From Nitrospira sp. (GTDB lineage: Bacteria > Nitrospirota > Nitrospiria > Nitrospirales > Nitrospiraceae), in NCBI GenBank assembly GCA_030123625.1, contig CP126121.1, positions 1,156,179 through 1,220,178 of the forward strand: a stretch of DNA of 64,000 nt, in the 5' to 3' direction. The translations under genes and the position numbers were made by a program. Positions 58,582 through 61,772 of this stretch are shown here, piece by piece. How positions within the stretch are numbered: the first letter of the stretch is position 1; each line of letters opens with the position of its first letter. The notes under the pieces were generated by a model. It worked only from the letters and a program-made list of their open reading frames with translations, was not told the origin of the DNA and did not search any database.

Positions 58582-59290
58582 TGTGTGCCTCCTTATAACG
58601 CTGATAGGAATGTGATGGAACGATAAGACAGTGAAATCATCATCTTATATTAGGTACAATCCATCAGAACATTATAATTAGTTACTATGGTTGTGTTATG
58701 GAATTCTTCGTTCAACCCGATTCCTCAGAAATTAACCGTGTTCCGACTACAGAACTCAGTTGCTGCATAAACGGTTGTGGGCTGTGCGATTAGTCCTTTA
58801 CTCTTATTATTGAAACTTGGCTAGAGTCCATTCATAAAAGCAGTAAATTATTTCATCCTCAAGATATTTGCCTGAGCGCTTCCGCACTCGCCGCTCAAAA
58901 TAAATACGTATCGCCGCTTATCGTATTCTTTTGTGTTCTTGGTGAATTGATTTAGATTCAATAGGGGTATTGCATTGACGATCGGCCAATGTCCAAGTGT
59001 GTATAAAACCCAGTTTCCACAGCTCCCGCTACACAACGCGATGGGAGGAACTTCCTCTTGTGCGCTAGGGCCCGTGAACCTTAATGGGGACGGATCGTCC
59101 GAATTCATGTTAACGAGCCTGGTCAACCCGCGCCGCCTTCCACTACGGCCGCCATATCGAATAGAGCACTTTCCTCCACGCTAGTTTTCAGCAGCTTAAG
59201 GTTCCTCGCTAATGTCTCGTGTATTGTTTCAAACAGACGCAGAACTTCCTCTTCTCCTTCAACGAAGAAAATTCGGCATCAATATGATGA
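58582..59290. other. AT-richer gene-poor stretch before the peptide cassette
   Basis: No credible gene. A 70-codon plus-strand frame at 58975-59184 contains VNLNGDGSSEFMLTS, vaguely like an FG-GAP or EF-hand loop, but has no start site or family support. Base composition is lower in GC than the flanking genes, as in acquired DNA. Confidence 0.4.
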
Positions 59291-59470
59291 TGAGCAGGTG
59301 GAACTATCATGGCGATGAGAACGCCTTAAAATTGGAGCGTTCCGGACGGCCGCGCACAGCCTCACTGTGTCAGACTGACACCCGTCACCTGTCTCCTACA
59401 GGCTTTATTTATCTCAACAGTCTATACGTACATGTACGCTCCCAAACTTCCCTGAAGAACCGAAGCCTTA
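59291..59470 (+). repeat. About 180-bp direct repeat, left flank of the peptide cassette
   Basis: Matches 61596-61772 in the same orientation and almost the same length. The best-conserved parts are the first 38 bp and the last 65 bp, including a 25-bp identical core at 59406-59430 (61707-61731 in the other copy). Around it, CGTACATGTACG is a perfect palindrome here and nearly so in the other copy. No protein of known type is encoded. Confidence 0.8.
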
Positions 59471-59693
59471 TCCCGCTTTCTCTCCTCGGAAGAAACAAGA
59501 TCCGCACCTTAGGAGATTGCGAAAGTACTCACCTGTTCAATAGTTAGATAATCAGTCCAATCATTTTCAAACCGCCCTTTTCATTTACATCGCTGTGTTA
59601 CCTAACCTTCTCTTCTAAGCCGGTACATGAATTGCTTGCCCAATGGATTGGCAGTGTCATGCACGATGGTTTGCCGTGACGCGCCTTTCTACC

Positions 59694-59719
59694 CGAGGCG
59701 CGCCTCGGTCGTTCGACCG
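59694..59719. promoter_or_regulatory. Two adjacent palindromes upstream of the peptide genes
   Basis: CGAGGCGCGCCTCG (59694-59707) is a perfect 14-bp palindrome; CGGTCG-TT-CGACCG (59706-59719) follows at once, sharing two bases. They lie about 65 bp before the first gene of the cassette, where an operator or an attenuating RNA hairpin could control it. Confidence 0.5.
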
Positions 59720-59781
59720 TTGCTGAACGCTCAAGCGGCCTACCACGCTTTGCTAACAATAACTGAAGGGAGGTGAGTCTG

Positions 59782-59988
59782 ATGACCAACTACCGTGAGG
59801 AGCAAGTGCTCCACGACCAGAGCCAACAGCCGTCACACCGAGTTCGCCTGCCCGGATTTGTAACCGACGAGGAAATCGGGCTCGGCGATGTGATCAAGCA
59901 AGCGACCTCATATTTTGGTATCAAGCCATGCGGAGGCTGCTATCAGCGGGCAGCGGCACTCAATCGTTGGGTGGTGTTCATCCCCTGA
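59782..59988 (+). CDS. 68-residue CGGC peptide
   Basis: The ATG at 59782 follows GGGAGGTGA, a near-perfect ribosome-binding site, with 5 bases between. The N-terminal 20 residues are polar (TNYREEQVLHDQSQQPSHR), then LPGFVTDEEIGLGDVIKQAT, then GIKPCGGCYQRAAALNRWVV. Cys50 and Cys53 form CGGC. From memory, the GLGD..K..T...GIKPCGGC..RAAALNRW pattern recurs in small bacterial peptides without known function. The L-P-G-F element echoes the M-P-G-F-T start of the peptide at 61047. Precursor or metal-binding roles are both possible. Confidence 0.75.
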   Translation: MTNYREEQVLHDQSQQPSHRVRLPGFVTDEEIGLGDVIKQATSYFGIKPCGGCYQRAAALNRWVVFIP

Positions 59989-60065
59989 TTGTGGATGGAG
60001 TCGTGGTCTCCCACTCGCGACTGTCACCATGACTGGAGATCCCGAAGACTGAAGGGAAAAGCATT

Positions 60066-61013
60066 ATGAATGAAGCAACTCAAACTCCGGAACCACCGGA
60101 AAGCCAGCCGGTTAGGGGGAGTGAAGTGCGTCAGACCGCATTTCCTACCCAGATGCATACCTCCGTCTCAATCGCGCCGCAGGCCGGATGTCCTAGCTGT
60201 AGCAGCGTGGGGATAGCAGATATGAATTCCACCGAGAAGGGGAGGCCATCTTATGTCTATGCCATTGGACGGGTCGAGACGCGTTTCCCTAGCCTCGCCG
60301 CACAGAAAGAATTTGCTCAGGCGACGGGGCGCTCAGACTCGGCGGGGAAAACCGACCAGCAGACCTTCCATGCTGTGCTGTCCAAGCGTGAGCACCGATA
60401 TTTGGTGCGCCAGTTATGTTGGGTACTGACGATTCAGGGCCTGGAAACCTATCTCCTAATGCCGCGAGATCCCGCAGACTTGGATCTTCTGGTGGAAGCC
60501 ATCCGTCCCGCTCAAAGTCCCAACGATATCGACGTCGTCATCGGTGTGCGCGGCCCTATCGCCCCGCCGGAGATGTGCAACGGACTGATGGTGCCTATAA
60601 TCGTGTTCGACCAAATCTATTCCTTCGATCGGGACGTGTTCATCAAATCCATCCCCAAACCAGAGAAAATTGCGGCCGAGAAATTTACCGCCACCGCAGG
60701 CGAACTTCTCGATCGGATTATACAGATGACGGATAATGCCGGCGCGACGGATGAATACCGGGCGATGAATTACCTCGCCATGCGCTATCCGGCCATCTAT
60801 GCGACCGTAACCGAATGTCATAACCGAGATTGTTCTCTCACTGCCGTCAATGTCCAGCCATCGTCTTTGAGCGGCATTCGCAAGATTGTCGAGGCCATCT
60901 TTTCGTTTACGCATCGTCAGACCGACGTGACCGAGAAGTACTTTGTGCGCGTCGACGTCACCGAGGAGTTTCCGTTCCTGGTCACGAAAATGTCGCCTTA
61001 CTATGATCGTTAA
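60066..61013 (+). CDS. PatG C-terminal-domain-like protein (cyanobactin maturation type)
   Basis: 315 residues. The first 60 are polar and hold a CPSC pair (Cys42, Cys45). The rest reads VYAIGRVETRFPSLAAQKEF, LVRQLCWVLTIQGLETYLLM and VVIGVRGPIAPPEMCNGLMV, then IVFDQIYSFDRD. I recognise this as resembling the domain found C-terminal to the subtilisin-like protease in PatG-type cyanobactin maturases; here there is no protease domain or catalytic Asp/His/Ser. It lies between two small Cys-containing peptide genes (78 and 33 bases away), so a role in handling these peptides is inferred. Confidence 0.65.
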   Translation: MNEATQTPEPPESQPVRGSEVRQTAFPTQMHTSVSIAPQAGCPSCSSVGIADMNSTEKGRPSYVYAIGRVETRFPSLAAQKEFAQATGRSDSAGKTDQQTFHAVLSKREHRYLVRQLCWVLTIQGLETYLLMPRDPADLDLLVEAIRPAQSPNDIDVVIGVRGPIAPPEMCNGLMVPIIVFDQIYSFDRDVFIKSIPKPEKIAAEKFTATAGELLDRIIQMTDNAGATDEYRAMNYLAMRYPAIYATVTECHNRDCSLTAVNVQPSSLSGIRKIVEAIFSFTHRQTDVTEKYFVRVDVTEEFPFLVTKMSPYYDR

Positions 61014-61046
61014 ACTTCTTCCACTGAAAAGAAAAGGAGATGTGAC

Positions 61047-61466
61047 ATGCGCGCCATAAACATGCCAGGATTTACTGCCGAAGCTTCGCTCTATAGGATG
61101 GTCAGATATTACCAAACACTTGGATCTGACGATTCAGCCGAGGAAGCCGTGGTGTCACCACAGCAATTACTCGCCGCAAACAATTGTTATTCGAAGTGCT
61201 ATTTAGATTGCATGGATTGCGATCGGAGCCGGCCAGGCTGCCCATTACCCTCCGTGTGCGCTTCTGGTTGTCGTTGTCGTTGCTACGGTATATGCCCACC
61301 GCCGCCGCTGCCAGCGCCACCTCCTTACTTTGATCAATGTGACAAAAATATGGGCTGGTGTATTTTAGGCTGTGCCCTGGGCGCAATATTTGGTGGCAAT
61401 CCGGCTCTATGCATCCTTCAATGCGACGCAAGATACGTCCTGTGCGAGAAGTATGGAATAGGGTAG
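61047..61466 (+). CDS. 139-residue Cys-rich peptide with PGFTAEASLY leader
   Basis: The ATG at 61047 follows AAAAGGAG with 7 bases between. Residues 6-16 are MPGFTAEASLY, an N-terminal motif that, from memory, opens many small unrelated Cys-rich bacterial peptides. Sixteen Cys follow (47, 51, 55, 58, 65, 71, 75, 77, 79, 83, then 98, 105, 109, 122, 126, 133) in two blocks separated by PPPPLPAPPP; several are spaced CxxxC. The second block is hydrophobic (WCILGCALGAIFGG), possibly membrane-inserting. No Sec-type signal is seen. It is a candidate precursor or metal-binding peptide. Confidence 0.75.
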   Translation: MRAINMPGFTAEASLYRMVRYYQTLGSDDSAEEAVVSPQQLLAANNCYSKCYLDCMDCDRSRPGCPLPSVCASGCRCRCYGICPPPPLPAPPPYFDQCDKNMGWCILGCALGAIFGGNPALCILQCDARYVLCEKYGIG

Positions 61467-61595
61467 CCCTCATAGCGATGTTGGAGTGATCCGGAATTAA
61501 ATAAGAACACGCGGGTCATCGGATCACTGGTTCCGGAGACTATAACTTCGCGCTGCGATCGTTGGGGTGCATGATTGAAATTCGTTCAACGATGT

Positions 61596-61772
61596 TGAGC
61601 AGGTGTAACTCTCATGACGGTGAGAACGTCTTAGGGATCGCTCAGCACGCACTGTGCAATGTCTCACCGTATCAACTGCGACATAATCGCTGTCGCGTAA
61701 AGGCTCTATTTATCTCAACAGTCTATACGTATATGTACGCTCAAAAACTTGCATGAAGAGCCGAAGGTCTTA
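61596..61772 (+). repeat. About 180-bp direct repeat, right flank of the peptide cassette
   Basis: Second copy of the element at 59291-59470; see there. The two copies bracket about 2.1 kb holding the three peptide-system genes. More diverged in the middle, conserved at both ends. Confidence 0.8.

Follow-up and report, generated by a model that had tools for sequence, protein, structure and literature searches.

The 64,000-nucleotide stretch of the Nitrospira sp. genome analysed here (the window, to which coordinates refer unless another locus is named) probably contains a partly decayed copy of a module in which a leader peptide would guide an S8 protease, a PatG-like protein and a small CxxC protein to hypervariable peptides, which would be cleaved at a VxP[QA] motif and have all of their cysteines paired. 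The gene set is widespread in bacteria and apparently unstudied. Its features in the window are as follows:

59286..59466, no strand, left direct repeat of about 180 bp, with two copies only in the genome
59696..59773, plus strand, S8 (PatA-type) protease remnant RRASVVRPLLNAQAAYHALLTITEGR, last 26 codons
59782..59988, plus strand, CxxC accessory protein (the CGGC peptide of the initial annotation), 68 aa, ...LPGF...GIKPCGGC...
60066..61013, plus strand, stand-alone PatG_D/PatG_C protein, 315 aa, identified by Pfam and fold match
60171..60200, plus strand, IAPQAGCPSC segment in the disordered N-terminus of the PatG-like protein, a precursor-like xPQ motif followed by CxxC
61047..61466, plus strand, precursor peptide ORF, 139 aa, 16 Cys, MPGFTAEASLY
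61047..61163, plus strand, precursor leader MRAINMPGFTAEASLYRMVRYYQ...AVVSPQ, leader profile E 1.4e-9 (own genome), ending at the predicted processing site
61164..61466, plus strand, predicted core from Q40 onward with the stop codon, 16 Cys, eight predicted pairs
61591..61766, no strand, right direct repeat, pairing with 59286-59466

Layout of the window locus

The three open reading frames of the initial annotation, with their ribosome-binding sites, are all present (59782-59988, 60066-61013 and 61047-61466), and the sites GGGAGGTGA and AAGGAGATGT lie upstream of the two small genes. The PatG-like gene is flanked by gaps of 77 and 33 bases, the latter as first counted and the former previously given as 78. 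Direct repeats of about 180 bp had also been reported, and these are found at 59286-59466 and 61591-61766, with 86-87% identity within two ungapped blocks and 76% overall. They have no further copy in the genome and no match in the other fetched loci, on which grounds a dispersed element was rejected, and searches for known RNAs within them returned sub-threshold chance matches only. The repeats are local, and a mobilising role for them is putative. The low-GC flank lies upstream, at 58600-59200 (39-47% vs about 55-60%). In an empty-site comparison, the nearest relative of the flanking GMC-type gene reached at most 53% among the 76 genomes sampled. This flank also holds a 31-codon ORF with a Cys-rich tail (58698-58793, plus strand, MEFFVQPDSSEINRVPTTELSCCINGCGLCD), for which the best match in the genus is not convincing (E 0.036) and which lacks a strong ribosome-binding site.

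A stand-alone PatG domain

The 315-aa protein had been described as resembling only the C-terminal part of PatG, and the domain searches agree: Pfam PatG_C (1.8e-34) and PatG_D (7e-32) match residues 63-312, with no other Pfam match. The AlphaFold model (pLDDT 86.5, from 44 relatives) matches PDB entry 4uvq (Foldseek E 8e-15, probability 1.00, TM 0.64/0.75) and no other PDB entry below 1e-3. Since the match to 4uvq by sequence alone is weak (E 0.014), the identification rests on Pfam and the fold together. The protein is a stand-alone version of the PatG domain of unknown function. Its identity is 71% with a methanotroph protein but only 35% with a paralogue from the same genome. The crystal structure of the PatG/PatA domain has been available since 2014 without an assigned role, and the PatG domain failed to bind PatE in NMR tests (PMC4259220). 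We regard the PatG-like protein as the probable substrate-holding partner of the protease; here the domain stands alone in its own gene, in a natural module pared down to a protease, a CxxC protein and the substrates, and its role thereby becomes directly testable. In 20 of 47 relatives the disordered N-terminus contains an xPQ followed by CxxC or CxC, compared with 0.2 on average and at most 4 in 500 shuffles. This layout mirrors that of the substrates, and suggests either processing of the N-terminus itself or mimicry of a substrate by it.

Recurrence of the gene neighbourhood

The three-gene neighbourhood recurs, at three more loci in the same genome and at 79 loci fetched from public genomes of many phyla. 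The genome itself (4.69 Mb, one contig) encodes four PatG_D/C genes, the window copy and three others, and at each of these three an S8 protease of about 300 aa is found immediately upstream of the PatG-like gene, followed at two of them by a CGGC/CAGC gene. Peptides starting with P[GRE]F[TSN]AE lie downstream, eight at 265.3-271.2 kb and four at 3932.3-3933.4 kb of the genome, and at the third locus this place is taken by a single Cys-rich protein of 724 aa (3766.9-3769.1 kb). The leader profile matches 15 places in this genome, 14 of which are within the four PatG loci, the other being a partial match with E 0.57.

The usual gene order is a PatA-type S8 protease, a CxxC protein of about 70 aa, the PatG-like protein and one to six leader peptides. 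With gene models taken as plain ORFs, the S8 gene was present at 52, the CxxC gene at 47 and at least one leader peptide at 42 of the 57 loci with enough flank, and all three were found at 33; the motif used detected no leader peptide at 15 of the 57, mostly actinobacterial. Clustering of the neighbours of the 79 loci revealed no other recurrent family beyond chance, and no YcaO heterocyclase, oxidase, prenyltransferase or macrocyclase recurs near the relatives. The initial annotation saw no protease next to the PatG-like gene; one normally adjoins it and has been lost here.

Loss of the protease in the window

The product of 59696-59773 aligns with residues 271-296 of the L015 protease at 61.5% identity (E 4e-5, in a search of 3.5 kb), its DNA resembles the protease 3' ends of 13 other loci, and its position relative to the CxxC gene is as in the complete operons. 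In the window copy the protease gene is gone apart from its last 26 codons, and the locus seemed protease-free because only this tail survives. The truncation could mean that the locus is a dead relic, its protease deleted and its three other genes neutral leftovers, and decayed PatG copies do adjoin working ones elsewhere (L109; G059 contig 113). We find this possible but doubtful, given that the three remaining ORFs are intact and have good ribosome-binding sites, that the window PatG-like copy retains the invariant residues of the family, that three other proteases in the genome could act in trans, and that a similar protease-less unit with intact neighbour genes occurs at L109, in another genome of the genus. 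The PatG-like protein, the CxxC protein and the 16-Cys precursor of the window would thus either need one of the genome's other three proteases or be vanishing.

The S8 protease and the CxxC protein

The catalytic triad of the S8 protease (Asp33/His69/Ser235) is invariant in all 68 complete copies. Among solved structures, those closest to it are of N-terminal cyanobactin proteases, namely 4h6w (5e-28), 4h6v, 3zxx and 3zxy, while the PatG macrocyclase is a weaker match (2e-14) whose alignment begins only at the catalytic His. The protease covers the front half of the TIGR03895 PatA model and the PatG-like protein its back half, and the two are fused at L091, L120 and L122 (one Chloroflexi locus and two further loci in the phylum of the window). 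For these reasons the module is a split PatA, and a protease working like the PatA leader peptidase is a well-supported prediction. PADLOC returned general subtilase/IetS matches to the S8 protein and nothing beyond them, and a defence system was rejected as an explanation on that basis.

The CxxC protein, of about 70 aa, is conserved across phyla (67 ORFs), with L-P, G-L-G, C-x-x-C, R and N as its invariants; the S8 protease also carries a CxxC of its own. The model of the small protein, with pLDDT about 90 for residues 31-68, is a helix-helix structure in which the CxxC opens a helix; no Pfam or NCBIfam model and no PDB entry or fold corresponds to the protein. Two precursor-like peptides had been proposed for the window. 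The 16-Cys peptide is indeed a member of the leader-bearing peptide family; the CGGC peptide was rejected as a second precursor, being conserved throughout and lacking a variable part, and for that reason belongs to the machinery as a conserved accessory protein. An LPGF-like element is present in nearly all members of the CxxC family, and at L120 (L120:9404-9640, minus strand) a CxxC protein encoded beside the fused S8-PatG gene opens with a genuine MSIPGFTAET leader. Taken together, these two observations raise the possibility that the CxxC protein may dock where the substrates dock. It probably assists thiol-disulfide chemistry or holds the complex together.

Precursor peptides

In the 82 loci examined we found 136 leader ORFs, 130 of them downstream on the strand of the PatG-like gene. 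P, F and A are constant in the leader motif, though these columns are partly fixed by the search pattern, which also overlooks divergent actinobacterial leaders; E is present in 93% and Tyr at +15 in 74%. About 30 residues after PGF lies a semi-conserved VxP[QA], found in 56% of the peptides vs 8% in shuffles, about 44% of the peptides being without a recognisable motif. Cysteine makes up 0.3% of the residues before VxP[QA] and 12% after it. The cores are hypervariable (101 clusters from 182 peptides), with a median length of about 48 aa and from 2 to 16 or more Cys. The window core has no detectable relative among the 182 peptides, and the precursor peptides match nothing in Pfam or NCBIfam.

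Two groups of precursors stand apart. A sub-family with PGF[NS]AESSLGP... (at L023, L025, L029, L032, L035, L107, L109 and L015) has an unusually conserved core, DPDLGAYLRCRANGGSDLICRFFAGLPPFTIGG, in contrast to the hypervariable rest. Large leader-bearing Cys-rich proteins occur at L040, L059, L062, L074 and L090, and also in the window's own genome, where a 724-aa Cys-rich protein (L017:4878-7052; G000:C1:3766877-3769051, minus strand) has the leader-like start MALPGFTVPSSLGKAR and five STIG1-type Cys-rich stretches (E 2e-33).

The even-cysteine rule

When counted from +20, the number of cysteines is even in 115 of 123 peptides (p 2e-25), compared with 51% in neighbour proteins and about 50% or less for most other residues. 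The even fraction varies with the assumed cut: it is 0.85 for the whole peptide, 0.98 at +28 to +32 and 0.54 by +46. Parity therefore points to the processing site without recourse to the motif; with the cut at the end of VxP[QA], all 76 motif-bearing peptides have an even count. The rule was also seen in a held-out set of 37 previously unused peptides cut at +30 (32/36, p 2e-6) and with one peptide taken per core cluster (92/97, p 9e-22). The even numbers and the perfect parity at VxP[QA] make removal of the leader there by the PatA-like protease likely, and the processing site in the window precursor was placed by the same parity.

Azole, lanthionine and sactionine chemistries do not require even Cys numbers. 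The simplest reading is that the cores would be freed at VxP[QA] and all of their cysteines would pair mutually, presumably as disulfides, and hence the need for "distant enzymes or a new chemistry" that had been foreseen falls away in favour of plain disulfide pairing. Paired metal ligands would likewise predict an even count, and CxxC is frequent in all three machinery proteins, which would fit cores whose Cys pairs hold zinc or copper, in a module for metallo-peptide maturation or storage. That explanation is nonetheless unlikely in our view, because the spacings typical of metal sites (CC, CxC and CxxC) are depleted relative to shuffles and CxxxC is enriched (144 vs 97), because two-Cys cores are common (17/126), and because the 724-aa member matches STIG1, a plant Cys-rich extracellular family.

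Proposed maturation and relation to known systems

In the disulfide model, the Cys-free leader [MIL]-P-G-F-T-A-E-A-S-L-Y...Y would recruit the module, the PatA-type S8 protease would cut the leader at or near VxP[QA], roughly 30 residues past PGF, and the hypervariable core would then fold with all Cys paired, most likely in disulfides. By inspection there is no obvious signal peptide in the machinery or the precursors, and therefore disulfides would have to form in the reducing cytosol or after a putative export step. The likeliest guess is that the products are competition peptides. A bolder version, which we put forward tentatively, is that of a new class of leader-guided, hypervariable and fully Cys-paired mini-proteins, matured intracellularly by a PatA-type protease, a PatG-domain leader-binder and a CxxC disulfide maker or shuffler, and spreading between phyla including Nitrososphaerota archaea. 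Such a class would be a bacterial counterpart of conotoxin-like families. If the disulfide reading is true, the module also gives access to a large and so far unexploited pool of stable peptides encoded by genes, and perhaps to a way of making cytosolic disulfides.

The protease and the domain of the module were previously known mainly from cyanobacterial peptide drugs. With the cyanobactin PatA/PatG of the patellamide pathway (TIGR03895; PF18047/PF18065) it shares the PatA-type S8 protease (in the relatives, the window retaining a 26-codon stump), the PatG/PatA domain and an adjoining leader-bearing precursor. However, the protease and the domain are usually separate genes here, there is an extra conserved CxxC protein, no heterocyclase, oxidase or macrocyclase recurs beside them, the cores are Cys-paired and hypervariable, and no model relates the leader to that of PatE-type precursors. 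There is normally one S8 gene per locus, without the second, insert-bearing S8 of the PatG macrocyclase, and against the TIGR03895 cut-off of 421 bits the S8 protease scores 102 bits and the PatG-like protein 23 bits, each over half of the model. Membership in the cyanobactins thus fails on the heterocyclase, the macrocyclase and the precursor type. A split pathway, in which enzymes encoded elsewhere would heterocyclise or macrocyclise the cores, could draw on the PatA-type protease and PatG domain that both systems have, but it is very improbable: no YcaO, oxidase or other enzyme is recurrent beside the 79 loci, heterocyclisation needs no even Cys numbers, and the alignment of the PatG macrocyclase with the protease starts no earlier than the catalytic His.

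As in other RiPPs, a conserved leader and a variable core are encoded beside maturation genes; as in disulfide-rich peptides, the predicted mature part has an even Cys number. Leader removal and core modification are predictions from the Cys parity at VxP[QA]. Some other RiPPs have free-standing S8 peptidases (NisP-like; QhpE), subtilases that take off a leader as predicted here, and the L015 protease matches QhpE at 3e-15, but the S8 protease of this module lacks a secretion domain and would be partnered by the PatG domain and the CxxC protein. In a review, Streptomyces scabies 87.22 SCAB_66631, a "cyanobactin"-like call of RiPPMiner with homology to the PatG domain only and four short peptides adjoining, was presented as an example of output that is hard to interpret, and neither a family nor a leader, a site of processing or a rule for the cysteines was described (PMC7369419). 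Our locus L096, from the same genome, encodes a PatG-domain protein, four PGF peptides (6, 6, 6 and 8 Cys), a CxxC protein and an S8 protease; given this gene content, it is apparently the SCAB_66631 locus, which would then be the same system. The strings FTAEASL and PGFTAE were not found in the openly licensed papers searched, where the S. scabies call was the sole trace of the system, and an earlier description elsewhere is possible.

Distribution and mobility

The module is common in environmental bacteria, including nitrifiers, methanotrophs, Acidobacteria and Streptomyces. The PatG_C domain was detected in 9 of 79 genomes of the same genus and in 15 of 396 in a sample of the phylum, counts that include a few longer PatA-like fusions without leader peptides. 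Three Nitrospira loci (L101, L102 and L103) encode S8-PatG fusions of 665-670 aa without PGF leader peptides; these probably serve another pathway as genuine PatA-type proteins. Plasmids carrying the module come from Mesorhizobium, Sinorhizobium (conjugative) and Streptomyces; in the last of these it adjoins a Tn3-family transposase and a recombinase. In public plasmid records its genes are labelled "S8 family serine peptidase" or "hypothetical protein". In the tree of PatG-like proteins the window protein clusters with Methylococcaceae, Nitrosomonadales, Edaphobacter and Nitrospira, a mixture of phyla that is no proof of transfer. Being patchy in the genus, plasmid-borne and mixed among phyla in the tree, the unit behaves like a transferable cassette, as the initial annotation had proposed. 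A phage origin was rejected, since the patterns used matched nothing in the viral contig collection or among 50,697 phage records.

The largest precursor array, at L015 (G000:C1:262000-278000), lies by a tandem segment duplication (about 263892-265587 and 266515-268210), whose two segments each encode the same 408-aa putative nucleotidyltransferase and the same 81-aa MPGFNAESSLG peptide. At its edge is a 555-aa protein that is tetrapyrrole methylase-like by eye.
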